DNA from: Spirochaetales bacterium
GTDB taxonomy: Bacteria > Spirochaetota > Spirochaetia > UBA9216
Direction of reading: 5' to 3'
Assembly: GCA_016839055.1 (NCBI GenBank)
Contig: JAEKNX010000006.1
Coordinates: 186,001 to 250,000, forward strand
Length of the DNA stretch: 64,000 nt
Each line of letters opens with the position of its first letter. The stretch's first letter is position 1. Shown in pieces: positions 44,730-63,251 of this stretch. The notes under the pieces were generated by a model that was given only the letters and a program-made list of their open reading frames with translations, did no database searches and was not told the DNA's origin. The translations under genes were made by a program, and so were the position numbers.

Positions 44730-45041
44730 ATGAATACTAATGTAATGAAGATTCTTACTATTGAGAACGCGGCTGCGGCTGCGAATGAGTTGTTAAAGAG
44801 TTTGAAATCAAAGAAAGACATTGTTCTGGATCTTAGCATGGTAGATCGTGTCGACCTGTCCGGAATCCAACTACTGATCTCTGTCCAGAATACCGGTGAA
44901 GAGCAGAATGAATCTTTTTTTTATACAGGAACGCTTAATAAAGCAGTGTTTGATAAAATTTCAAATAATGGTTTCTGTTTTATTCCAAAAGAGGAAGATA
45001 GTGAACTGTTCACTATAAGGAGAAGCAGCGGTGAATTCTGA
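44730..45041 (+). CDS. Small STAS-domain protein
   Basis: 103 residues from ATG 44730, preceded by CAGGAG (an in-frame TTG at 44712 overlaps that site). A compact STAS fold: ANELLKSLKSKKDIVLDLSMVDRVDLSGIQLLISVQNTG, with the usual phospho-acceptor Ser in DLSGIQ. It is the first gene of the chemotaxis operon and overlaps cheA by 11 bp. The tight coupling suggests that CheA signalling is connected to a STAS-type switch. Confidence 0.85.
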   Translation: MNTNVMKILTIENAAAAANELLKSLKSKKDIVLDLSMVDRVDLSGIQLLISVQNTGEEQNESFFYTGTLNKAVFDKISNNGFCFIPKEEDSELFTIRRSSGEF

Positions 45042-47154
45042 TCAATTTCGACAGGCATTTATAGAGGAGTCCATGGATCTTCTAAGCTCGCTTGAATCCA
45101 GGCTGCTCGAGATGGAAGAAGCCCCTGGGGATAGAGAAAAAATATCTGCAGTTTTTCGAATTATCCATACAATTAAGGGTTCCTCAGCCATGTTCGGGTT
45201 TAATGAAATTTCTTCATTCACTCATCATGTTGAAAACATTCTTGATGCCGTGCGTGAGGGAAAGCTCAGTGTGAGCCGGGAGCTCATAACCTGGACGTTG
45301 AAGTCGGGAGATCATATCACCGCGCTGATTGAAGGTGACTCTGATCTGGAAGAAAAAGAGGCGTTAAACAGAAAGTCTGATGAAATAGTTACCTCGTTCA
45401 AGAATGCCGTAGGATTCAAGCCCACTGATGTCAGGGGGGCTCAACCCCCGCTGGCTGCGGAACCGGAAAAAACCGGAAAAGATGCTGTTCTTTGGCGCGT
45501 GAGGTTTAAACCTTCCAAGGAAATCTTTAAAAACGGAACAAATCCGCTTCTGCTGATAGAAGAACTATGCGAGTTAGGAGAACATCTTGTAATACCGAAT
45601 ATCAGTGATATCCCCAATCTCGATAAAATCGATCCGGAGCTATGTTATACCGGCTGGGACATCGTTCTTCTTACCGATAAGGCTGAAAATGAAATCAGGG
45701 ATGTCTTTATCTTTGTAGAAAATGATTCCGAGCTTCAGGTAAAACAGGTGCCTCAGGAGGAGTTCGATCTAACCGATGGAGAGTCTCCGAAGCTGGGTGA
45801 AATCCTCTTGAACCGCGGAGACATCAATGAAGATGCGCTTAAGAATCTTCTCGAGAAACAGAAGAAACTTGGACAGCTCATTCTCGAAAACAAGATGGCC
45901 TCGAAGGAAGCTGTCGATTCCGCCCTTAATGAGCAGAATTTCATAAAGACGGTTAATGAAAAACGTTCCGAGAAGGCTGGAGCCTCTTCACTCAGGGTTA
46001 ATTCGGATAAGCTCGATGAGCTTGTCAATCTTGTAGGTGAGCTTGTAACCGTTCATGCCAGGATTGATCTTGAGAGTAAAGATACAAGTACTGAAATGCG
46101 TTCAATGGTGGAGCAGCTCGGTAGAATAACTGAGAGTCTGCGTGAGAACACGATGAGTATGCGCCTGCTTCCAATAGGCACAACTTTCAGTCGTTACAAA
46201 CGGCTGGTAAGGGATCTTTCGAATGACATGGGGAAAAAGATCGAATTGATTATGAGCGGAGAGGAGACCGAGATAGACAAAACCGTTATTGAAAAGCTGA
46301 ATGATCCTCTTGTTCATATTATCAGGAATTCAATTGACCATGGAGTCGAGGATCCTCAAGAAAGGATAAAGAAGGGTAAACCGGAGACCGGCACTGTCAA
46401 GTTGACCGCCGAGCATGCCGGTGCCTCGATCCGGATTTCTATCGAAGATGACGGAGCCGGGCTTAACAGGCAGAAGATCTATGATAAGGCGGTCAAGAAT
46501 CATATCATCGAAGCCGGTGCTGTCCTGTCGGATGAGGAGCTATTCGGGCTGATCTTTCAGGCCGGCTTCTCTACCGCGACAAAGGTCACAAATGTTTCCG
46601 GCCGAGGCGTCGGAATGGATGTTGTTAAACGTCAGATAGAGAGTCTGAACGGGGCAATAAAGGTAGAGAGCCGGGAGCATGAGTTTACGAAGATTATTCT
46701 TTCATTGCCGCTCACCCTGGCCATTATTGACGGTTTTCTGGTTAGTGTCGGAGAAGATAATTATATTTTTCCACTTACCGTTGTGGAGGCTTGTCTAGAA
46801 AGCAAATTTAAAGAGCGCAAAGGTGGCAGCAAGAAGATGGTTCCTTATAGAGAGTCGCTGCTTCCCTATGTTGATCTCAGAGAGGAATTTGGAATTACAA
46901 GCGATCGGCCCGAGATTGAACAGATAGTCGTTGTTCGGTCGGAAGATAAACGGATAGGATTTTGCGTGGACAAGGTTCTTGGAGAGAATCAGACAGTAAT
47001 TAAATCACTGTCGGGAGTTTTTAAAAGTGCTAAAGGCTTTTCCGGGGCAACAATTCTCGGTGACGGCAGAGTTGCACTGATTCTGGACACTGAGGGCCTT
47101 TTGAAAAGATCACTGCTTAACGAAGAGAGTATGGCAAATGAACGATACAGCTAA
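45031..47154 (+). CDS. cheA: Chemotaxis histidine kinase CheA
   Basis: 707 residues, GTG start. P1 Hpt domain with phosphorylated His46 (RIIHTIKGSSAMFGF). A P2-like region covers about 150-235. Next comes an inserted tandem repeat at about 250-305 (PKLGEILLNRGDINEDALKN... then LGQLILENKMASKEAVDSAL). P3 dimerisation starts at LRVNSDKLDELVNLVGELV. The P4 ATPase has DPLVHIIRNSIDHGVEDP, EDDGAGLN and GRGVGMDVVKRQI. P5 CheW-like domain from about 560. It passes phosphate to CheY and CheB. The next gene, cheR, overlaps it by 17 bp. Confidence 0.97.
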   Translation: MNSDQFRQAFIEESMDLLSSLESRLLEMEEAPGDREKISAVFRIIHTIKGSSAMFGFNEISSFTHHVENILDAVREGKLSVSRELITWTLKSGDHITALIEGDSDLEEKEALNRKSDEIVTSFKNAVGFKPTDVRGAQPPLAAEPEKTGKDAVLWRVRFKPSKEIFKNGTNPLLLIEELCELGEHLVIPNISDIPNLDKIDPELCYTGWDIVLLTDKAENEIRDVFIFVENDSELQVKQVPQEEFDLTDGESPKLGEILLNRGDINEDALKNLLEKQKKLGQLILENKMASKEAVDSALNEQNFIKTVNEKRSEKAGASSLRVNSDKLDELVNLVGELVTVHARIDLESKDTSTEMRSMVEQLGRITESLRENTMSMRLLPIGTTFSRYKRLVRDLSNDMGKKIELIMSGEETEIDKTVIEKLNDPLVHIIRNSIDHGVEDPQERIKKGKPETGTVKLTAEHAGASIRISIEDDGAGLNRQKIYDKAVKNHIIEAGAVLSDEELFGLIFQAGFSTATKVTNVSGRGVGMDVVKRQIESLNGAIKVESREHEFTKIILSLPLTLAIIDGFLVSVGEDNYIFPLTVVEACLESKFKERKGGSKKMVPYRESLLPYVDLREEFGITSDRPEIEQIVVVRSEDKRIGFCVDKVLGENQTVIKSLSGVFKSAKGFSGATILGDGRVALILDTEGLLKRSLLNEESMANERYS

Positions 47155-47986
47155 TTTGAGTTTAAGAAAGATCGGCGATAAGGAATTCAAGCAGCTCAGC
47201 GAATTCATCGAAGATGAGGTGGGAATAAAGCTGCCGGAGGTGAAGAGGTCACTGCTTGAGTCACGGCTTCAGAAACGGCTGAAAATTCTCGGAATTGTTG
47301 ATTTTAAGGAATACTGCAATCATGTCTTTCATTCTACCGAGGGGGCAACCGAAGTTCTCGAGATGATCGATGCGATTACGACCAACAAGACCGACTTCAT
47401 GCGTGAGCCTGCTCATTTTGAATACATGGTACATGAAGCTCTTCCTGAGATAGTCAAGACCCGGGCTTCAATCAACCTCTGGTCCGCCGCCTGTTCTTCA
47501 GGGCAGGAGCCGTATAATATGGCTATGTTCATGGAGGAGTTTATCCACAAGAACAGAGCTGTCAATTACAGTGTGATAGCAACTGATATCAGTAAGAGTT
47601 CTCTGCAGAAAGCTCAAGAAGCTGTTTACAATAACCGGGATATCGAGGTTGTCTCCGATAGATTCAAAAAACAGTATTTCTTGAAGAGCAGGAAAGCCGG
47701 AAGCGAACTTGTAAGAATAAAACCGGAGATAAGGAAACAGGTCACCTTTCAGGGAATAAATTTGATGAAGGAGCATTACGGGCTTAGCGGGAAATTTGAT
47801 ATAGTTTTTTGCCGGAATGTGTTAATTTATTTTAATAAAGAAAATCAGGCCAGGGTTATTCAGCGGATAATTGATCATATGACCGATGGAGCGTATCTTT
47901 TCCTTGGTCATTCAGAAAGTCTTGCGGGTATGCGGAACCATCTAGTAAGTGTTGGTTCTTCCGTATATCGAAAGGAGAGCAATTGA
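47138..47986 (+). CDS. cheR: Chemotaxis methyltransferase CheR
   Basis: 282 residues. The N-terminal helical domain ([32 protein letters not shown]) is followed by the SAM-binding fold: [51 protein letters not shown] and [18 protein letters not shown], then [10 protein letters not shown]. It methylates glutamates of chemoreceptors. It overlaps cheA by 17 bp and cheB by 4 bp. Confidence 0.97.
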
Positions 47987-49074
47987 AAGATAAAATAAAA
48001 GTAATGATCGTAGATGATTCGGCTGTTGTCAGACAAACTATGTCGGAAATTTTAAACAGTGCGAACGATATTGAAGTTATAGCAGTGGCAAGAGATCCCC
48101 TCGTTGCAATCGAGAAACTCAAGACTCTCACTCCTGACGTAATTACTCTTGATATAGAGATGCCCAGGATGGACGGTCTGACTTTTCTTCGGAAGATTAT
48201 GAGTACAAACCCCATTCCTATTGTCATCTGCTCGAGTCAGGCGGAGGCTCAGTCACAGAATGCGCTGAACGCACTCGAAAGCGGAGCTGTCGATATAATC
48301 CGAAAACCGATGCTTGGGACTAAACAGTTTATCGAGGAATCCAAAATAATAATAACCGATGCTGTCCGAAGTGCCGCGGCTACCGGAGGTAGAAGAGTAG
48401 TAAATAAAATGAATACTATTAATCAAAAGGTTGCGCCGAAGCTGACCGCCGATGTTATTCTCTCGGGAGGTACCGGCCGGAACGTGATTGAAACAACGGA
48501 GAAGGTTGTGGCCGTTGGGGCATCAACCGGTGGGACCGAAGCCCTCCGTGCATTTCTTGAAGCACTGCCGGCGAATAGTCCGGGAATAGTTATTGTTCAG
48601 CACATGCCGGAAAAATTTACCGCGAGTTTTGCCGAAAGACTGAACGGCCTCTGTAATCTGACAGTTAAGGAAGCCTCAAATAATGATACAGTTCTCCGCG
48701 GCCACGCCCTCATAGCGCCAGGAAACAAGCATATGTTGCTTAAAAGAAGCGGCGCGCGCTATTATGTCGAAGTCAAGGATGGACCTCTTGTAAGCCGTCA
48801 CAGACCTTCGGTAGACGTCCTCTTTCGGTCAACGGCAAGATATGCCGGAAAGAATGCAATAGGGATAATAATGACCGGAATGGGAGATGACGGGGCTGTA
48901 GGAATGTTGGAAATGAAACAGGCAGGCTCTTACAATATTGCACAGGATGAAGCCAGCTGTATTGTTTTCGGTATGCCGAATGAGGCTATAAAGAAGGGCG
49001 GAGTTGATATAATTGTTTCGCTTGATGATATCCCATCGGTTATGTTGAAACAAGCAATGGTTAATAATAGATGA
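47983..49074 (+). CDS. cheB: Chemotaxis methylesterase/deamidase CheB
   Basis: 363 residues, TTG start overlapping the cheR stop. The receiver (1-120) has Asp11, Asp12 and phospho-acceptor Asp57 ([14 protein letters not shown]). The methylesterase domain (about 170-355) has catalytic Ser in [13 protein letters not shown], His in [11 protein letters not shown] and Asp in [10 protein letters not shown]. It reverses CheR methylation on receptors. Confidence 0.97.
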
Positions 49075-50840
49075 GCTCCAACAGTCAAATTCTTAAACAG
49101 GTTATTACGGATACTGAAAATATTTTCAGCAGAATAGCTGAGCATTATCCGAACCTTCTTAAGGAACTGGAAAAGAATATCAAAGATGCCTCATCTTCTC
49201 TTGATAAGCTTTCAATGGTTAATCCCGGAGGAGTAATGAAGGGCGCGGGAATTCCTGTTGGTTCCTATCTGGGGGAGAGGAAGGAAGAATCTAAAAAATC
49301 CCTGCTGGAGCTGAATGCTTTCCAGAAGCAGAATGAGGTCATTATAAAGAAACTCACCTCATCCATTACCGACTATCAGGACTCACAGGCTTATATCGAG
49401 GAAATTAGGGATATCTCCGAGTCGCTTCAGATAGTATCGCTTAATGCTCTTGTTAATGCAGTAAAGGCCGGAAAGGGCGGAGAGGGTTTTTCGGTGATAA
49501 CCGAGAATCTTAAGAATGTCACCGGTACAACAATTGAAAAAACGAGTATTCTGGAGCAGAAGGGGGAAGTCATTAAGCGGAAGCTTGACGTTTTCTGTAC
49601 TTCCGAGAAGGCAATATCACTGAATAGAAAAGAGCTGCTTGAACTCCTCGAACAGAAGATGATGAGCGGAATTGATACTTTTCAGGTAGAGTCTGAAACA
49701 GTTAATAATCTACTCTCAGGACTGAACAAGGAGTCAGAGAAGGTCCGTGGTAATATTCTCAGAGTGATGGAGGAACTCCAGCAGCAGGATATCATCAGAC
49801 AGACTATCGATCAGATTCTTATGTCAATGAAAGAGCTTCCAGTAGAAGTCGAAGGTTTTAGCATCGACGACTTTTCCGAAGACGAAGAGATGGATAAGAC
49901 AGTTTTTTATGAGCGGCTGATAGACATCTCTATAATAATGATAGATGAGGTTGTAGAGAAACTGAACCGAACCGTTAATATATTTTCTGAAAATTTTAAT
50001 CAGGCGCGGCAGAGACTCGAATATATACAGGGTGAAAAAAATGCGGCAATTGAGCATTTTATAACAAACCTTAAGTCAATGACCAGCCTGTCGGAAATGA
50101 ATATTGAAGTTAGGGAAAGATCGAATGAGCTGTCTGAAAAAAGACGAGGACTGATTTCACTTATTTCGGGAATCTTGAAACATGTTCATGGCATCTCCGA
50201 AGAAATAGAGTCTTTTAAGAAGATTTCCGGATGGCTGCAGAATGTCGCGGTATTGTCCCGAATAGAGCTGACACGGAGTCTCAGCCTCAGGCAGATGACT
50301 GAATCGGTTGATGATATGGCCGATCTTGTCGAAAGGATTCAGGAGCAAATTAAGCGCGGCGAGAGAGAAACAGGTGATTTTATCAGTTCTACCGGGATGC
50401 TCTTTGAGGAATATGAAGCCTATGCCGAAGAAGAACAGCATTATATGCGGGATTTTTTCGAGTCTTTTATAGACGGCATCAGTGAAATGAGTTCAATCAA
50501 TAACTCATTTTCGGATGTACTGAAAGATTTTAATTTCTTTTCTGAAAAGTTCAGGAACCTGTTCGAGATATCATCCGGAGAGATGGAGCAGTTGAAGAAA
50601 CTTACTGGAGAGCTGTCCCATGTCTCGGGAAATCTTCAGACGCTTAAAGTCCGGTTTGATGAGACTATAAAAAAGAAAATAGGTGAAAAAGAAATTCAGG
50701 AATGGAATATTTCAGACGAGAGTTTGAATAAAATAATAGAACGGTTTACAATATATAGTCACAAGAGATCTGCAGGTGAGGTCACAGGCCTCAATGTGGA
50801 AGAATCTGCCCTCGGGGCCGGAGAAGTTACTTTATTTTAA
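49071..50840 (+). CDS. Chemotaxis-operon protein, MCP-like and CheZ-like features
   Basis: 589 residues with no membrane helix, almost entirely predicted coiled coil. Residues ~115-150 resemble a degenerate receptor hairpin tip ([32 protein letters not shown]). Around residue 240 the stretch [17 protein letters not shown] has an Asp-x3-Gln spacing as in the catalytic helix of CheZ (DLTGQ). It overlaps cheB by 4 bp and is followed by cheY after 15 bp. It could be a soluble array component or a CheY-P phosphatase. No standard cheX or cheZ was found in the window. Confidence 0.7.
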
Positions 50841-50855
50841 TAATTGGAGGATTAA

Positions 50856-51221
50856 ATGGCTCAGACAATAATGGTAGTTGATGATTCAAATGCAATCAGG
50901 CAGAGTGTCAGTTTTATACTCAAGGAAAATGGTTATGAGACAATTGAGGCTTGTGACGGACGGGACGGATATGACAAACTCAAGGATCGGAAGGTTGATC
51001 TGATAATTACTGATGTAAATATGCCTAATATGGACGGCATATCGATGGTGCGCGAACTGCGGGAAACGGATACTCATAAGTTTACACCCATCCTTGTTCT
51101 GACAACTGAATCTCAGGCCTCAATCATGCAGGACGGCAAGAGTGCCGGAGCAACCGGGTGGATTGTTAAGCCCTTCTCAAATGACAAGCTGATCGCGACG
51201 ATAAAAAAAGTGTTAGGCTGA
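50856..51221 (+). CDS. cheY: Chemotaxis response regulator CheY
   Basis: 121 residues, a stand-alone receiver. The acidic pair Asp9/Asp10, phospho-acceptor Asp53 (LIITDVNMPNMDG), Thr in ILVLTTESQ and Lys in WIVKPFSNDKL are all present. CheY-P switches the flagellar motor. RBS TTGGAGGA lies 6 bases before the ATG. Confidence 0.96.
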   Translation: MAQTIMVVDDSNAIRQSVSFILKENGYETIEACDGRDGYDKLKDRKVDLIITDVNMPNMDGISMVRELRETDTHKFTPILVLTTESQASIMQDGKSAGATGWIVKPFSNDKLIATIKKVLG

Positions 51222-51240
51222 ATTTAATTCGGATCCGGGA

Positions 51241-51819
51241 ATGTATAAGTATTATGACAATAAATTAAAGAGAGAGATTAATAATCTTGGCCCGGGAGAG
51301 TATTTATCGTCTGACGAAGATATAGTAATAAATACAGTATTGGGTTCTTGTGTTTCTGTAGTCCTGTTTGATCCTATATTGAAAGCTGGCGGCTTCAATC
51401 ACTTCATGCTGGCGGATGTAAGTCTGAATACCAGAATAGACAATTTTTTCAAGGTGGAGCGTTACGGGCTTTACGCCATGGAATCCCTGATAAATGATTT
51501 TTTAAAAAGGGGAAGCAAAAAGAGTAATTTAAAAGCCAAGGTTTTCGGCGGCAGCAGGATGCTCGAAACCCAGAGGGTAATAGATATCGGCGCTGAAAAC
51601 ATCCGTTTTGCCGAAGAATTCCTGAAAACAGAGAAGATCCCCATCATCAGTCAGGATACAGGCGGCAGTAAAGCCATGAAAATATACCTGTATACGAAGA
51701 CTTTCAGAATTCTGCTTAAGCGGGTTGATTCTCGAACAACCGAACTATACCAGCAGATGGAAGCGTACAAGAAAAAGCTTAAAGAAGAGAAAGACGGAGG
51801 AATAATAGTTCTGTTTTAA
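51241..51819 (+). CDS. cheD: Receptor deamidase CheD
   Basis: 192 residues, slightly longer than usual. The catalytic Cys is in NTVLGSCVSVVLFDP and His in GGFNHFML, followed by AKVFGGSRML and a Thr-Gly context in ISQDTGGSKAMKIYL. CheD deamidates receptor glutamines and often acts with CheC-type phosphatases; no CheC is present here. It ends the operon and overlaps the convergent J-domain gene by 4 bp. Confidence 0.95.
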   Translation: MYKYYDNKLKREINNLGPGEYLSSDEDIVINTVLGSCVSVVLFDPILKAGGFNHFMLADVSLNTRIDNFFKVERYGLYAMESLINDFLKRGSKKSNLKAKVFGGSRMLETQRVIDIGAENIRFAEEFLKTEKIPIISQDTGGSKAMKIYLYTKTFRILLKRVDSRTTELYQQMEAYKKKLKEEKDGGIIVLF

Positions 51820-52352
51820 TAGTTTGCATTATGGACATTCAGTTTAAAAATAGCAAAGCCCATTTCGGTTGAGTTCATTATATTAAACTGGATGAAGTAG
51901 CTTCCGAAGAGGAGGTTTTTATTTGTTTTTTTCCTGTTTTGCCGCTGCCATGTTAGGGCGGAAATCAGTTCTTCCCAATTTATTTTTCCGCTATAATATA
52001 GGTACTCTCCGAGTCTGAGTTTTCTGTTAGGCAGTTTTCTCGAAGGGGTCTCAGGTTGCTGCCGGAATTCCTGATGGTGCTGTTCGGAGGAGACCTTAAT
52101 TTCAACGGCGTTATTTGATTTTACGGAGATAAGAAAATCATAGGCGTCTTTTAACCTAAGAAAACTGTCACTCTCAGCCGGGTTTCGAGCCTCGCTGGCG
52201 GTATCCGGATGGCATTCTTTGACCTTTGATCTGAATGCATGTTTAATTCCGGACAGCTGCAAATATTCAATTGTCTCTCTTTCAAAGGAAAAACTATCAC
52301 CGAAAAGAAGCGTACAAGCTTTCTGAATTTCATTTTCTTTAACAATGGTCAT
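51816..52352 (-). CDS. J-domain protein with LG..L...G repeat unit
   Basis: 178 residues. A J-domain-like region covers about 10-75 (HAFRSKVKECHPDTASEA, with the HPD triplet, then DSFLRLKDAYDFLIS). The segment at about 112-140 (RLGEYLYYSGKINWEELISALTWQRQ) matches one unit of the tandem repeat found in CheA. This motif type is known from MshE/GspE N-termini, where it binds c-di-GMP. It lies between cheD and cheW. Its HPD would normally stimulate a DnaK-type chaperone. Confidence 0.75.
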   Translation of the reverse strand: MTIVKENEIQKACTLLFGDSFSFERETIEYLQLSGIKHAFRSKVKECHPDTASEARNPAESDSFLRLKDAYDFLISVKSNNAVEIKVSSEQHHQEFRQQPETPSRKLPNRKLRLGEYLYYSGKINWEELISALTWQRQNRKKTNKNLLFGSYFIQFNIMNSTEMGFAIFKLNVHNANY

Positions 52353-52400
52353 AGTACTTTTTCGACCTTAATAAATAATTCTTTAGATATCTTTCAGCAT

Positions 52401-52436
52401 AAAAAAACAACAGAGCTTCCGGGAATTTCCCGGAAG
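52401..52436 (-). terminator. Intrinsic terminator of cheW
   Basis: On the minus strand an 8-bp stem (CTTCCGGG/CCCGGAAG, loop AAATT) is followed by CTCTGTTG and a run of seven T, just past the cheW stop. Confidence 0.85.
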
Positions 52437-52447
52437 TCTGAAACAGG

Positions 52448-52933
52448 TTATTCAACACTTTTGGGTATATTTACCTGGGACAATTCGTCCTCCGAGAGTA
52501 TCTTGTCTATATTGAGAATAATTACAAATTCACCATTGCGTTTTCCCATACCCGATAGGTATTTGTTGTCAATGAATATTCCAAGACGCGGTGGTTCTTC
52601 AATATCTTCCGCTTCAAGGGTAATTACCTCACGTGCGGCATCTACAAGAATACCCATCTGAATTACATCCTCATCGTGAACCATTTCGGTGACGATGACT
52701 GCGGTGTCTTCGGTTTGCAAAGTAGCGCCCCGGCCGAACTGCATTCGTAAATCAAGAACGGGGACTACAGAGCCTCGAATGTTTATTACTCCGCGAATCA
52801 TTGCCGGCATTCCCGGAACCCTTGTGATGTCAGGGACTTCGAGAATCTCCCTGATTTTGAATACATCTATTGCATATGTTTCTTCTTCAATTTTAAAAGT
52901 AACAAACTGATTGTTTATGATAGTTTCCTGCAT
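52448..52933 (-). CDS. cheW: Chemotaxis adaptor CheW
   Basis: 161 residues. One CheW/SH3-like domain: FVTFKIEEETYAIDVFKIREIL, VPGMPAMIRGVINIRGSVVPVLDLRMQFG and GILVDAAREVITLEAEDI. It couples receptors to CheA. AGGAGG lies 8 bases before the ATG. It is encoded apart from the main operon, in opposite direction, 91 bp downstream of a receptor gene in the same direction. Confidence 0.96.
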   Translation of the reverse strand: MQETIINNQFVTFKIEEETYAIDVFKIREILEVPDITRVPGMPAMIRGVINIRGSVVPVLDLRMQFGRGATLQTEDTAVIVTEMVHDEDVIQMGILVDAAREVITLEAEDIEEPPRLGIFIDNKYLSGMGKRNGEFVIILNIDKILSEDELSQVNIPKSVE

Positions 52934-53024
52934 TCTAAAAACCTCCTGCTGGTTGAAAATCCATCTATGGATTAATTCTAAAATTCCTGTACCCTAATAG
53001 CAAGTATATCTTAATAATATTAAT

Positions 53025-55100
53025 TTAAAATTGCTCAAATTCATCATCAAGATTGTCTATTGTAGTCTTCTCCACTGCTGGTTTCGGTTTAACATTCTGT
53101 ATCAAGACTTTGCCGGTCTGCCTTGCCTTCTTTTCCGAAGGGTTTGCGTGTTTTACGGCGGTTCGCGGGCCGGTACCTCGGGCTTCATCGAGCTTGAAGA
53201 AATCGATCATATCAAGCAGTTTTTCCGCCTGGGCTGAGAGTTCTTCGGACATCGAAGATGATTCCTCGGCTGATGCGGCATTCATCTGGATAACCTGGTC
53301 TAGTTGAATCATTACCTGATTGACCTGCTGTGCTCCGGAATTTTGTTCGAGGCTGGTGGCGTTTATTTCCTGAACAAGATCGGCGGTCTGTCTGATGTCG
53401 GGTATCATTTTTTGAATCATCTCGCCGGCGGTATTGGCCTTTTTGACACTGGAAGTCGCAAGGGCTAGTATTTCATTTGCCGCCGCCTGACTGTTTGCCG
53501 CGAGTTTTCCTACTTCGGAAGCTACAACCGCAAATCCCTTTCCATGCTCTCCCGCCCTGGCTGCTTCTATTGCGGCATTAAGAGAAAGCAGGTTTGTATT
53601 TCGGGCTATCTCTTCAATAACTCTGATTTTGGTGGCAATCTGGTTCATCGCTTCCACGGCCTCGAGGACGGCGTTTCCTCCAGTCTGTGCATCGTCAGCG
53701 GCCTTTGAGGCGATTTTTTCAGTCTGTGAGGAATTGTCTGTATTCTGTCTGATCGAAGCGCTTATTTCTTCCATGGAGGAGGAGACCTCTTCGGCAGTCG
53801 ATGCTTGTTCACTTGCACCCTGAGATATCTGTTCGGCTGTCGAGGCCAGTTGACGGCTTCCCTGGGAGACCATCTCCGCCGAGGTTCTGACTTCCCTGAC
53901 AACTTCACTCAGCCGGTTCTTCATCGTTCTAAGGGTATCAGCGAGGATGCCCATCTCGTCTTTCTGGTTGACATCTATATTCGCCGTCAGGTTGCCCTGC
54001 GAGAGCTCTTTTGAAAAAATAACGCCCAGATTAAGTTGGCTGCTAATCTGTCTGGCGATTATTACCACTGCAATGATTATTAGAAGCAGCGAGGCGATAC
54101 TAATGATGGATATTATCAGAATTGCAGACTTTGATTCTTCATAGACAACCGAGGTCGGGATGTTAACGGTCAGACAGATATTGTAGCCGGTTCCGTAAAC
54201 AGGCTGATGCTGGCCTGATATAATATACTCATTCTCTAATGAAGAATCATAAATTTCGAGGACGAAATTTTCCTTACTCATTACTCCTTTGATGAGGTCG
54301 GGATTGACCCCGTCGTTATCATTAAGGTTTGCTCCCAATATTCCATTTTCTCCGCCGCCGGCTATCAGCATGCCGGTTTCGAAAAAGATAGTCAGAAAGC
54401 CGGTATCCTTATAGGGTTTCTGAGAGGTAATCATATTATCAAGGTCGCTTATCGCTATATCACATCCTGCAATTCCTATGAATTTTCCAGAAGGATCCTG
54501 AATGGGAACAACGAGGGATGTAAGAAGAACATCCACTCCGTCGATGGCGTAGAGAAAGGGTTCAAGTATATGCGGGGTATTGGTGCGTTTGGGATCCTGG
54601 TAATAGGCTCCGGCTGTTGTATCCTGGTAATCTACCAGCGCGGAAAGAAGAATTTCGCCGTCCTCACCCCTGCTCATATAGGGAATATAGCGCCCTGACC
54701 CGTCATGGCCTTCAGTATTTGCATATTCCGCGTCTCTTCCGTCAAATTTATCCGGCTCAAACAGGAAATATGTGCCAAGGAGGTTTGGATATTGTTTCAG
54801 GACATTTACAAGGAGGGCATCGGCCTGCGCCCTGGTGAGATTGCCGTCTCCGGCGAAGAGGAGCCCTTCCGCGCTTTTGGCCATAGTCATCGCGATAAAA
54901 ACAGCCTGGTCAAGTTCCTTCGCCGCTACTGCCCCGAATTCTCCGGCAACCGAATCAGCGAGGGAAATCGCGTGATTTTTTGCCAGATTGGACACCCTGA
55001 TCTGGACAAACATGATTACCGATCCTAAGGCGATTATTGTGACTATCGACAGAATAGCTATCAGTCTCGTCCCAATCTTTAAATCTTTCATCTTTTTCAC
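53025..55100 (-). CDS. Transmembrane methyl-accepting chemotaxis protein with Cache domain
   Basis: 691 residues. Two membrane helices (about 12-32 and 325-350) flank a dCache-type ligand-binding region ([62 protein letters not shown]). A HAMP segment (about 352-405) leads into the signalling domain with the hairpin tip [33 protein letters not shown], here with [13 protein letters not shown] following. The N-terminal glutamine/glutamate helices fit methylation sites. The C-terminus is Asp/Glu-rich ([10 protein letters not shown]) with no CheR-docking pentapeptide of the usual type. It is probably co-transcribed with cheW. Confidence 0.95.
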
Positions 55101-58400: not shown

Positions 58401-59164
58401 ACAATTCCGCCGTCCCATAATCCCAGATAGAGATTATCCTTCTCAGAGTTCTGCGCTATGCTCATGACGGCGTTTCCGGGTAGTCCTCCGGGCTCTTCTG
58501 AACTGGCGATGGTTTCGAAGAATCCGGTTATTTCATTATATTTCGATATTCCACCGTATGTACCAATCCATATATTTCCGCTGCTGTCTTCGGTAATGGC
58601 TCTTATGACATTGCTTGGAAGGCTGCTCTTATTGCCTTCTTCCGGGAGGAACTGCCGGAAGGTTCCGTCGGCTTTCATCAGATTAAGACCGTTCATTGTT
58701 CCGACCCAGAGGCGGCCGGAGCTGTCTCTGAATATGCTTACTACAACACTATCGCTTAAGGTTGTACTGCTCCCTGTCTTACGCTGGTATCTCGTGAATC
58801 TTTCTGTCAGCGGATCAAACTGATTAAGACCATCATAGGTTCCCAGCCAGATGGAACCGTTTGTGTCGAGCATCATTGTCTGGATGAGATTATGACTGAG
58901 CGAGTTTTTATTAAAGGGATCCTGATTAAAAATCTGGAATCCGAAACCGTCATATCTGGCAAGTCCTCCCTGGGTTCCGAACCACAGATATTCATTATTA
59001 TCCTGCAGGATTGAGGATACCGAGGGATTGGGCAGTCCGTCTTCGGTTGACAGCCGGTTCAGTCTAAACCGGGCTGTGTCATCTGTGAAAACAGGAACCG
59101 CTGCCAGGATGGTGAACAGGCCGCCCATCAGGAACATGAGCCGGCGTGAGGGGGTAATCAGCAT
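55475..59164 (-). CDS. Propeller-type hybrid two-component sensor kinase
   Basis: 1229 residues. A signal peptide precedes about 14 two-component propeller repeats (about 30-640), each with LWIGTYGGLN-like units such as [14 protein letters not shown] and [14 protein letters not shown]. These form two seven-bladed propellers in the periplasm. A Y_Y_Y domain follows (about 690-760, [12 protein letters not shown]) and then one membrane helix (about 785-805). The cytoplasmic part has HisKA ([20 protein letters not shown]), an ATPase ([32 protein letters not shown]) and a receiver ([36 protein letters not shown]). No AraC-type output is fused, so its target lies elsewhere. It is divergent from the hydrogenase-like gene. 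Confidence 0.95.
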
Positions 59165-59247
59165 AATTAAAGACTAATGAAAATTGTTACAGCAATCAAT
59201 ACGAATATTTACTAATATACATATTTAATTTTGATTTTCATTCTTCG

Positions 59248-59256
59248 TGATATAAT
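59248..59256 (+). promoter_or_regulatory. Extended -10 promoter of the hydrogenase/receptor gene
   Basis: TGATATAAT (59248-59256), a perfect extended -10. A weak TTTTGA lies 16 bases upstream at 59229. Transcription would begin about 46 bases before the ATG at 59309. Confidence 0.55.
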
Positions 59257-59308
59257 GGTCGATAATAATAAAAATGCAATATTATACGTTCATTGTTATG
59301 GAGAGTTT

Positions 59309-61390
59309 ATGAAAAATCTTGTGGAAATTATTAGAATAGATGAGAAGAAATGTAATAACTGTCACAAGTGTATATCCGTATGCCCGGTAAAATTCTGTAT
59401 CGACGGAAGCGGGGATACTGTTGTCGTTAATCACAATCTTTGTATCGGCTGCGGAAGCTGTATCGATGCATGCAGTAGTAATGCGAGAACATTTATTGAT
59501 GATACTGAAGCTGCCTTTACAGCCCTTGATAATAGAGAAAAACTGATAGTAATATCGGCTCCCGCCCTTGTTAGTAATTTCAATACAAATTATAAAAATC
59601 TGATAGGATGGCTTAAGAGTCGCGGCGTGGCCGCTGTTTTTGACGTGAGCTTCGGTGCCGAGCTTACAGTGAGATCATACCTTGAGCATGTTAAGACTAA
59701 TAAGCCGAAATGTGTTATTGCCCAGCCCTGTCCGGCCATCGTCTCTTATATCGAGATCTATAAACCGGAACTGCTTAATATTCTTGCCCCCGCGGACAGT
59801 CCGATGCTTCATACCGCAAAAATGATCAGGGAGTTTTACCCCCAGTATAAGAACCATAAATTAATTGTCCTCTCACCCTGTATTGCCAAGAGGCGTGAGT
59901 TCGCTGACACAGGTATATGTGACTATAATGTGACCCTGGCCGGACTAAGCAGAAGGATAGAAGAGGATGGAATTAATCTTGATAGATTTGAGCCTGCGGG
60001 TTTTGACAATCCTCCTGCAGAACGGGCAGCGCTTTTCTCTTCTCCCGGCGGATTAATGAAGACCGTAATGCGTGAAAATCCCGCGGCCGGGGAGCTGATA
60101 AGAAAGATTGAAGGCCCATCGGAAATATACGAATATCTGGATACTCTTTCGGAATCCGTAAGAAAGGGAGTTAGTCCGCTGATTGTCGACTGTCTAAACT
60201 GTTCGAAGGGCTGCAACGGAGGAACCGGCACATTAAGCAGGGAAAGTTCCATTGATGAGCTGGAATTCTATATCTCAAAGCGGACCGAAGAGATGAAGTT
60301 GAAATACCGGAAACCGCTCTCGGTGAAAACTTCCAAGCGCAAATTAAACCGAGTGCTCGATAAGTACTGGAGGGCAGGTCTTTACGGAAGGACTTATCAG
60401 AACCGGGCTGAGAATAATACAATCAGGACACCCTCAAAAATGGAGATTGAAAAGATCTACACCGACATGCTCAAGGATACCGAAGCCGACTATCTGAATT
60501 GCGCGGCCTGTGGCTATAATTCCTGTGAGAGGATGGCAGTGGCTATTTTTAACGGCCTTAATAAAAAAGAAAACTGTCATCGCTATAAACATCGAATGGT
60601 CGAGATTGAGAAGAATGTTATTGATTCAATGAATCAGAAACTCGGAGACAGGATATCAGGATGCAAAGATCTTATCTTAACGGTTCAGGACTCACTAAAG
60701 ATTGTTGATTCAAATATGCTGGAACAAAGCGGTTCACTCGAAGAATCCTCAGGTTCGGTAAAACAGATGATTGATTCATTCAGTATTATCTCGGAAAGTT
60801 TTATGAAACAGAACTCTAATCTTAAGACCCTGATAGTGAAAGCCCGTGATGGAGAATATGAGCTCAAGGGCAGTTCCGGCGCTATTAAGAAGATTACTTC
60901 AGGAATAAGCAGAATAGGCGAGATGGTAGGAATGATCGATGATATATCCCAGCGGACAAACCTCCTTTCGATGAACGCGGCGATAGAGGCCGCTCATGCG
61001 GGAAGTTCAGGGAAGGGATTCGCGGTTGTTGCCCAGGAGATTAAGAAGCTTGCCGAGAATACAGCGGCGAAGGCGAAGGAAGTTGGTGAAACCCTCAATG
61101 GAATAATCTCCGAAGCCGGCACCACCAGCAGCAGTTCGGAACTTACAACAAGAGTTATTCTGGAAATAATCAGTGAAATTCATAAGCTGACAACGGATGT
61201 AAACAAGCTGGCTATCGATGTTGAGGGAATGGTTTTGGGAAGCAGCTCTATTATTTCATCTATAGATGTCCTCAAATCGGATAACCGAAAAGTTCTTGAC
61301 TCGGCTGCCGAGATTGGAGTACATATAAACCAGCTTGACAGTAATATGCAGGAGCTGATTACAATTGCATCAGGCTATGAGGAGAATTAA
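59309..61390 (+). CDS. [FeFe]-hydrogenase-like/chemoreceptor fusion protein
   Basis: 693 residues from ATG 59309 (GGAGAG upstream; a TTG at 59231 is far from any ribosome site). Order: two [4Fe-4S] sites (Cys15/18/21/25 and Cys45/48/51/55); a hydrogenase large-subunit domain (about 75-310) with L1-type [14 protein letters not shown]2-type [11 protein letters not shown] and L3-type [14 protein letters not shown]; a further cluster site near 396 ([10 protein letters not shown] plus a later Cys); and a receptor signalling domain (about 440-690) with tip [21 protein letters not shown]. No membrane helix is present. The L1 motif lacks the first Cys of TSCCP that relays protons in catalytic enzymes, as in sensory hydrogenases. 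It is probably a cytoplasmic H2 or redox chemoreceptor. Confidence 0.88.
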
Positions 61391-61419
61391 TATTGAAAAC
61401 AAAAAAAGGAGGCCGCTCA

Positions 61420-61956
61420 ATGAGAAGCAACTCTGACGGCAGGCGGCCGGTTATAAAAGGCTTTTCTCTTCTTGTAATTGTTTTCTTTATTGCATCACTG
61501 AACTTTACTCTCGACAGGCTTTCTAAAAATTATGCGGTAGAGCATATCAAAGGGCAGGGGACTATTCAGGTTGTAGGTAATATTTTCATTCTTCATTATG
61601 CCGAGAATGACGGAGCCTTCCTCGGTTTCGGGGGGGGGCTTCCAAAACCCCTTAAAACATTTCTATTGATTCTTCTCCCGGTTGTGCTTATAGTCGCGTC
61701 AACAATTTATACCGCCTTCAGCGGCAGTCTTCCGCCCGGTCAGATAGTCTGTCTATCTTCAATAATCGGAGGCGGTGCCGGCAACCTCTTTGATCGTATT
61801 TTCAACGACGGCACGGTGATAGATTTTCTTAATTTCGGAATAGGAGGTCTGCGGACTGGAATTTTAAATGTGGCCGACCTGTCGGTGACATTCGGTGCTG
61901 TTCTTCTGATTATCCTGCAGCTAAGGCAGTCAAAGGCCCAGGCCGCAGGAGATTAA
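61420..61956 (+). CDS. lspA: Lipoprotein signal peptidase (signal peptidase II)
   Basis: 178 residues from ATG 61420, chosen because AAAGGAGG lies 7 bases upstream; an in-frame TTG at 61393 overlaps that site. It cleaves diacylglyceryl-modified prolipoproteins. The catalytic aspartates lie in GGGAGNLFDRIFNDGTVIDFL and GILNVADLSVTFG, among four membrane helices. The codons for FGGGLP contain a run of nine G (61630-61638), which is slippage-prone. It lies 29 bp after the hydrogenase-like gene and works downstream of Lgt, encoded at 10.7 kb. Confidence 0.95.
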   Translation: MRSNSDGRRPVIKGFSLLVIVFFIASLNFTLDRLSKNYAVEHIKGQGTIQVVGNIFILHYAENDGAFLGFGGGLPKPLKTFLLILLPVVLIVASTIYTAFSGSLPPGQIVCLSSIIGGGAGNLFDRIFNDGTVIDFLNFGIGGLRTGILNVADLSVTFGAVLLIILQLRQSKAQAAGD

Positions 61957-61967
61957 ATCAGATTAAA

Positions 61968-63251
61968 TTAGGTTAATTCTTTTGAAATGGTTATTGCCGC
62001 TATGGTGCCGTCGGCGACCGCGGTAGTAATCTGTCTGAAAGCCTTTGTTCTGACATCACCCGCGGCAAAGACTCCCGGGATGTTTGTTTGCATATTTTCA
62101 CCGGTTTTAAGATATCCCCATTGATCAAGTTCCATTTCATCATTGAACATTTCCAGATTAGGGATGAAGCCGACGAAGACGAATATTCCGTTTGTTCTGA
62201 TCTCTGTTGTTTCACCGGTCTTGAGATTCTCTACAACAACACCCATGTCCATGTTTCCGTATTTTTTAAACTCACGGGGCTCATGTTCGAACATGAACTT
62301 GATCTTTTTGTCTGCGAAAATTTTCTTCTGGGCTTCCTTGTTTGCCTGCAGGGTGTCGAACTGGTGGACTATTGTAATCTTGCTTGCAAATTTGGACAGA
62401 AAGAGTGATTCCTCGATGGACGAGTTTCCTCCGCCTATGACTACAATTTCCTTGTCATCATAGTATTTTCCGTCACAGGTCGCGCAGTAGCTTATTCCCT
62501 GCCCCTGGTATTCTTTTTCTCCCGGGACATTGAGAGGTCTGGGTCTTGAGCCGGTGGCGATTACAATCTTCTTTGCTTCAATAGTCTCGAAACCGTCAAC
62601 AAGAATACTTTTGTTTTTTAGATCAATCTTCGATACTTCGACCGCGGATCTGAACTCAACGCCGTTGGCCTTTGCCTGTTCTCCCATGAAGTGACTAAGC
62701 ATGAATCCCGGCTGAGGTTCAATAAAGCCCGGATAGTTGGAAACCTGATGGGTTGTCGCTACATAGCCGCCGGGCAGGGCTGTATCAATTAGTATAGTAT
62801 TAAGGTGAGCCTGTGCAAGGTATATTCCCGCGGTGAGCCCTGCCGGACCACCGCCGAGGACGGCGACGTCACAGTTTGTAACAACCGGTTTGATGCTGCC
62901 GTGAATTTCTGCCGCCCTGTCTTCGGGAATCAGGGCGTCGAGTCCCTTCATTATTTCCGAGCGCTTGATTCCTCCGCTGAGCTTAGGGCCCGAAAGTCTG
63001 CCGTCCTGGTAGAACAGAAGGGTTGGAGAACTCGAAACATCAAGTTCTGCCGCGAGGTCACGGTTTCCCTGTCTGAATATTTTTACGAATGTTATGTCAT
63101 CACCGTAAAGGGTACTGAGACTCTCATATTTAGAGGCCAGAGCCTCGCATGGCGGACATTCGGTTGAGTAGAAATCTACAACCGCCCTCTTTTTGCCGAG
63201 GACTTCCTTCTTGAATTCTGATGCCTGTATTTCCTTGATTTTCCCTGCCAT
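61968..63251 (-). CDS. Thioredoxin-thioredoxin reductase fusion
   Basis: 427 residues from ATG 63251 (AAGGAG upstream; an open frame to 63299 overlaps the next gene). Residues 1-105 are a thioredoxin domain with active site TECPPCEAL (CPPC instead of CGPC) and SSSPTLLFYQDGR. Residues about 120-427 are an FAD reductase with VAVLGGGPAGLTAGIYLAQA, redox ISYCATCDGKYY, VVIGGGNSSIEESLFLSK and GVFAAGDVRTKAFRQ. The domain order (Trx then reductase) is the opposite of the mycobacterial fusion. It could deliver NAD(P)H electrons to its own disulfide and then to an acceptor. It converges on lspA. Confidence 0.92.
   Translation of the reverse strand: MAGKIKEIQASEFKKEVLGKKRAVVDFYSTECPPCEALASKYESLSTLYGDDITFVKIFRQGNRDLAAELDVSSSPTLLFYQDGRLSGPKLSGGIKRSEIMKGLDALIPEDRAAEIHGSIKPVVTNCDVAVLGGGPAGLTAGIYLAQAHLNTILIDTALPGGYVATTHQVSNYPGFIEPQPGFMLSHFMGEQAKANGVEFRSAVEVSKIDLKNKSILVDGFETIEAKKIVIATGSRPRPLNVPGEKEYQGQGISYCATCDGKYYDDKEIVVIGGGNSSIEESLFLSKFASKITIVHQFDTLQANKEAQKKIFADKKIKFMFEHEPREFKKYGNMDMGVVVENLKTGETTEIRTNGIFVFVGFIPNLEMFNDEMELDQWGYLKTGENMQTNIPGVFAAGDVRTKAFRQITTAVADGTIAAITISKELT

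Follow-up and report, generated by a model that had tools for sequence, protein, structure and literature searches.

The window, by which we mean the whole 64,000-nucleotide stretch of DNA analysed here, carries an intact gene in which an [FeFe]-hydrogenase H-domain is fused to the signalling domain of a methyl-accepting chemotaxis protein (MCP). The product is a well-supported member of a named, apparently untested class, group C2 of HydDB, which was listed as 'Chemotactic (putative)' in 2016 (PMC5037454, Table 1). It is best read as a cytoplasmic H2/redox chemoreceptor with H2 as its presumptive ligand, and we lean, with slightly better than even confidence, towards a soluble cytoplasmic chemoreceptor of the C2 kind in which a slow, non-metabolic H-domain is coupled to the receptor hairpin. 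In HydDB, the C2 H-domain is proposed to sense H2 and to act through methyl-accepting chemotaxis proteins, and the fusion in the window fits that proposal. As C2 is defined, the protein combines a sensory-type H-domain with MCPsignal (E 1e-24) on one chain; the match to C2 was made by group description, not by classifier or reference sequences. The original prediction had supposed that this output pairing might be unrecorded, which the HydDB definition contradicts.

Domain organisation and predicted structure

The positions of the gene, its motifs and the neighbouring chemotaxis genes are given in Table 1. The open reading frame begins with ATG, as read directly from the sequence. Pfam placed the Fer4-type clusters at residues 8-65, Fe_hyd_lg_C with 106 bits (cut-off 22.1), the FeS match PF04060 at residues 396-423 and MCPsignal at residues 511-645 with 87.6 bits (cut-off 34.6). 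The cysteines of the ferredoxin sites are invariant in the family alignment, gapped rows excepted. No HAMP or PAS match was obtained for the protein with Pfam, and no transmembrane stretch is evident in it. Rfam gave no match within 58800-62000, and promoter and terminator scans around the gene returned consensus matches only.

Table 1. Features of the fusion gene and of the nearby chemotaxis genes (window coordinates).
Feature	Position	Strand	Basis
CheA histidine kinase, likely signalling partner	45031..47154	+	ORF; H-kinase_dim match C17:231985
CheR-type methyltransferase	47138..47986	+	ORF; named by recognition
CheB-type methylesterase	47983..49074	+	ORF; named by recognition
BB0569-like chemotaxis protein	49071..50840	+	NCBIfam NF052273 E 7e-28, 97.5 bits, far under cut-off 1000
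CheD-type deamidase	51241..51819	+	ORF; named by recognition
CheW-type adaptor	52448..52933	-	ORF; named by recognition
Conventional membrane MCP	53025..55100	-	PF00015 match C17:239244
Shine-Dalgarno-like GGAGAG upstream of ATG	59300..59305	+	Direct sequence
Fused [FeFe]-hydrogenase H-domain / MCP signalling protein, 693 aa	59309..61390	+	ORF, Pfam, AlphaFold model
Two ferredoxin-type [4Fe-4S] sites, Cys15/18/21/25/45/48/51/55	59351..59473	+	Pfam Fer4 families
H-domain Fe_hyd_lg_C, residues 78-305	59540..60223	+	Pfam E 3e-30; Z 38.8 to CbA5H
L1 motif QPCPA, residues 139-143; C299 position Pro, ligand Cys141 kept	59723..59737	+	Motif alignment
L2 motif SPCIAKRRE, residues 189-197; ligand Cys191, Lys194, Glu197	59873..59899	+	Motif alignment
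L3 motif, residues 294-307; ligand Cys298, bridging Cys302	60188..60229	+	Motif alignment
C-terminal Fe-S site CX2CX4CX16C, Cys398/401/406/423	60500..60577	+	Pfam PF04060; TmHydS/TamHydS motif identical
Receptor hairpin N-helix, residues 424-563, modelled directly after last Fe-S cysteine	60578..60997	+	AlphaFold model
Adaptation (methylation)-type motif	60728..60757	+	Pattern search; putative function
Receptor tip, expected CheA/CheW contact, residues 543-582	60935..61054	+	Pfam MCPsignal 511-645; conserved columns
Receptor hairpin C-helix, residues 569-687	61013..61369	+	AlphaFold model

All four H-cluster ligands (Cys141, 191, 298 and 302) are present together with Lys194 and Glu197 of L2, and L3 reads D-C-L-N-C298-x3-C302-N-G-G. 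We take Lys194 to be the equivalent of CpI K358, a contact of the [2Fe] cyanide. Alignment of the TSCCP motif of CpI with L1 places Pro140 at C299 and retains the ligand C300 as Cys141, whereas alignment with the canonical hydrogenases of the same genome gives Ser at M353 and Leu at M497. Replacement of C299 is a usual feature of groups C and D, the putative sensory ones. A catalytic hydrogenase of group A or B was rejected on the change of C299 to Pro and on the further altered active-site residues. The two ferredoxin clusters, the cysteines of L1, L2 and L3, the extra Fe-S site and the receptor hairpin tip had all been anticipated by the original prediction and are borne out by the reading frame, Pfam, the motifs and the model, as is its observation that the first Cys of TSCCP is missing.

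Modelling with AlphaFold on 32 homologues (mean pLDDT 87.5, pTM 0.66) gave a hydrogenase body and a single antiparallel hairpin with helices 424-563 and 569-687. Residues 1-366 of the model match CbA5H with Z 38.8 and an rmsd of 2.6 A over 346 residues (Foldseek was also used), the match to CpI has Z about 36, and PDB entries 4xdd ('Apo CpI') and 3lx4 ('HydA(deltaEFG)') are among the fold matches. The long signalling helix is predicted to start immediately after Cys423, which completes the ligand set of the C-terminal Fe-S site, with neither PAS nor HAMP between sensor and output. Occupancy of the clusters is presumed.

The receptor tip keeps the consensus in its conserved columns. One consensus-type methylation motif is found; compared with that of the MCP at 53025-55100, it sits one heptad farther from the tip. 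Such a motif occurs in 36 of the 111 family members scored.

Extent of the family and its output domains

The pairing of Fe_hyd_lg_C with MCPsignal, for which the original prediction recommended a search, recurs in more than 100 homologues from several phyla. Since the pair is conserved to this extent, its origin by chance is excluded, and an assembly or annotation chimera was rejected on the same grounds. A profile of the sensor half, built from the family alignment, was used to bound the family: 144 collected proteins score above 480 bits, and all other H-domains reach at most 402 bits. The hosts belong to Spirochaetota, Bacteroidota, Acidobacteriota, Ignavibacteriota, Planctomycetota, Myxococcota, Bacillota and others.

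MCPsignal is present on 73 of the 82 C-termini scanned, and the remainder mostly carry a histidine kinase with a receiver, usually behind PAS, and in one case PAS and a SpoIIE phosphatase. Such swaps of the output lie within the sensor clade (L051, L040, L058, L071, L081 and L093; the SpoIIE phosphatase in L051). On the tree the whole sensor set forms one group with SH-aLRT 100, with most of the kinase-bearing members nested inside it; long branches keep this tree from fixing where the group stands relative to groups A, B, C and D. The original prediction had likened the protein to the HydS-type hydrogenases with PAS domains, a comparison that fails on the missing PAS match and on this separate clade. 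The arms that follow the Fe-S site vary by lineage from about 70 to 190 residues each.

In MAGs labelled Deltaproteobacteria (L067, L070, L082, L083, L084 and L087), two C2-MCP fusions share one locus in the same orientation, and their receptor arms are the shortest, at about 156 residues in total after the Fe-S site. At L054:5977-8058 an in-frame stop inside the H-domain splits a C2 fusion, and stops also interrupt the matches in G253 and G120.

Genomic context of the receptor genes

At no fewer than eight loci of Treponema type, the receptor gene adjoins hydE, hydG and hydF. L130 has the order hydE, C2 receptor, hydG, hydF, and L131 has C2 receptor, hydE, hydG, hydF; in the six others (L060, L064, L065, L066, L073 and L091) the three maturase genes lie within 6 kb of the receptor gene. 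As far as we found, neither this linkage nor the recurrent maturase absence in other hosts described below has been reported before. CheA-, CheW- or CheR-like genes are found near the receptor gene in L028, L029, L025, L036, L045, L094 and L143.

In the window, a che cluster that includes an MCP (45031-55100) lies 4-14 kb from the fusion gene, its nearest end about 4 kb away. The labels CheR, CheB, CheD and CheW in this cluster are presumed from recognition, not from a profile. The genome of the host, a motile anaerobic spirochaete, holds four CheA-type genes and more than 30 ORFs with an MCP domain. It also contains a second C2 fusion at L008:8-3464 (contig C5 of G000), a protein of 663 aa whose sensor half is 52% identical to that of the window protein; its tip is altered and its output may differ. 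This paralogue is placed between adenylate-cyclase-like and PilZ-like genes.

Absence of maturases in the host and in related spirochaetes

The host genome (G000) is 97% complete in 43 contigs and has nine H-domain ORFs, which, under names that are partly motif-only, comprise four of group A type, one group B-like, one PAS-type sensor, one group D-like and two C2; the four group A-type hydrogenases have canonical motifs. According to a review, all three maturases are essential (PMC6212873). The original prediction had staked its reading on HydEFG being encoded in the genome, and the search went against it, as it turned up neither HydF nor HydG nor a bona fide HydE. The best match to HydG in G000 has 37 bits and the best to HydF has 83 bits and is a double-GTPase Der-like protein, and searches for both down to E 0.001 yielded nothing beyond other GTPases and a radical SAM protein resembling HydE. 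The candidate for a true HydE (L009) was rejected at 164.8 bits, below the cut-off of 254.6; G002, from the same genus, holds a low-scoring HydE-like copy resembling L009 besides a true HydE. Among seven sampled genomes of the host's family, HydG is missing from all and HydF from six, and those without maturases include one rated 100% complete and others at 96-97%.

HydF and HydG were surveyed in 295 spirochaete genomes, all selected at a completeness of 90% or more, with a threshold of E 1e-90, at which maturases that are truncated or have diverged strongly would go unnoticed. A C2-type sensor was found in 67 of these genomes, of which 37 have HydF and HydG, two HydG only and 28 neither; the last group includes two-contig genomes at 99% completeness from other families. 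The sensor and the maturases occur together more frequently than expected, with maturases in 39/67 sensor-bearing vs 63/228 sensor-less genomes (Fisher p = 8e-6, shared ancestry uncorrected). The active site is conserved with or without HydF and HydG: the four H-cluster cysteines and Glu197 are each kept in 28/28 proteins from both kinds of host, and Lys194 in 27/28 from HydFG-bearing and 28/28 from HydFG-less hosts.

Some few-contig genomes of the same class, such as G029, have H-domain ORFs and no HydE, HydF or HydG. In G002, which is 81% complete and where HydG was not found, HydE and HydF flank an aspartate-lyase-like gene and follow immediately on a pair of NifH-like and a pair of NifD/E-like genes (L126:566-8146). 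HydF without HydG also occurs in four genomes of another genus (G017, G042, G245 and G295).

Interpretation of the maturase-less receptors

With no hydEFG genes found in the host, H2 sensing in this organism is a candidate function. The proposal that H2 or redox sensing feeds into CheA/CheW stands in part, for the sensory-type H-domain, the CheA/CheW-type output and the che genes of the host agree with it. At the level of the family, the chemoreceptor reading survives, because other members lie within hydEFG loci and hosts with and without maturases show the same invariant H-cluster residues. It is nearly an even call, in our estimate falling a little short of one, that a large proportion of spirochaetes, the host included, retain C2 receptors (and, in the genomes inspected for them, hydrogenases of canonical appearance) whose H-cluster residues are fully conserved, in spite of lacking HydF and HydG and, as far as tested, HydE; either an unknown maturation route or a cubane-only redox chemoreceptor must then be assumed.

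In the cubane-only form, the H-domain of hydEFG-less hosts would hold only the [4Fe-4S] cubane, and the Fe-S chain would read the ferredoxin/NADH state, giving energy or redox taxis instead of H2 taxis. The loss of both HydF and HydG from the host and 27 other sensor-bearing genomes agrees with such a receptor, as do the retention of every cubane ligand and the ability of hydrogenases to fold without [2Fe], for which 4xdd and 3lx4 are examples; nevertheless, we regard it as rather unlikely, as Lys194 and Glu197 are no less invariant in HydFG-less than in HydFG-bearing hosts and some homologues sit inside hydEFG loci. An ordinary C2 H2 sensor whose maturases were lost from the assembly, for example in a mis-binned operon, is more doubtful still. 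A genome of 97% completeness in 43 contigs could lack hydE, hydG and hydF together, as these are often a single locus, and its four canonical group A-type hydrogenases point the same way, but the absence recurs in the family genomes and in the two-contig genomes of other families, and recurrence across so many genomes makes genes missed by assemblies unlikely. Very improbable, finally, is a hairpin that no longer signals to CheA and drives another output, as perhaps in the paralogue of contig C5, whose tip QTKIIAFNAELEASSAG and neighbour genes suggested it; the window protein has the consensus tip and an adaptation-type motif, and the che cluster is close by.

Proposed mechanism

In the preferred reading, a C2-type chemoreceptor, the H-domain would be an [FeFe]-hydrogenase site that is slow and non-metabolic, and its occupancy or redox state would track H2, or low-potential electrons delivered through the two ferredoxin clusters. 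A change in its state would move the C-terminal Fe-S module, and this movement may pass through Cys423 into signalling helix 424-563 and the hairpin without PAS or HAMP, altering CheA activity and swimming. Direct passage is proposed because the helix is predicted to begin at once after Cys423. H2 left the C-terminal cluster of the related TamHydS unreduced (PMC13104023), and a conformational relay is therefore favoured over a simple electron-transfer relay. We infer H2 as the ligand, occupied clusters, this signal route with its sign, and incorporation into receptor arrays; the sign of the response is not predictable.

Relation to known proteins

Among characterised sensory hydrogenases, TmHydS of Thermotoga maritima (group C / M2f) shares with the window protein two N-terminal [4Fe-4S] sites, an H-domain without C299 and the C-terminal CX2CX4CX16C motif, but it has Ala at C299 and a PAS domain, whereas the window protein has Pro, an MCP hairpin and no PAS. 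TamHydS of Thermoanaerobacter mathranii (group D / M2e) has the same cluster layout and a hydroxyl residue at M353 (Ser or Thr in group D, Ser in the window protein); it differs in its Ala at C299 and in lacking a fused output domain. The catalytic [FeFe]-hydrogenases CpI, CbA5H and DdHydAB agree with the window protein in the fold of the H-domain (Z 32-39) and in possessing the four H-cluster cysteines, whereas the window protein replaces the proton-transfer Cys299 as well as M353 and M497 and is fused to a chemoreceptor. With soluble cytoplasmic chemoreceptors (e.g. Aer2-type, NF041847) it shares the MCP hairpin and the lack of an evident transmembrane region, but an Fe-S/H-domain stands in place of their PAS-haem sensor.

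Chemotaxis to H2 is reported for a methanogen, Methanococcus maripaludis, according to a citation within PMC4266047. In the literature examined we found no molecularly characterised H2 chemoreceptor and no experiment on any C2 protein, H2-dependent signalling included. The C2 family is a directly testable candidate for such a receptor, with a one-domain sensor, a CheA output and, in the model, a last cluster cysteine that abuts the signalling helix. If it senses H2, it would help to explain how fermenters and syntrophs position themselves in H2 gradients, and the maturase-less hosts pose the question of whether the H-cluster, or the H-domain, can work without HydEFG. Another sensory hydrogenase of the same host, of PAS type, is encoded beside a SpoIIE-like phosphatase and a group B-like hydrogenase (L128:8427-13064, contig C43 of G000), an arrangement that resembles the phosphatase-linked HydDB group C3.
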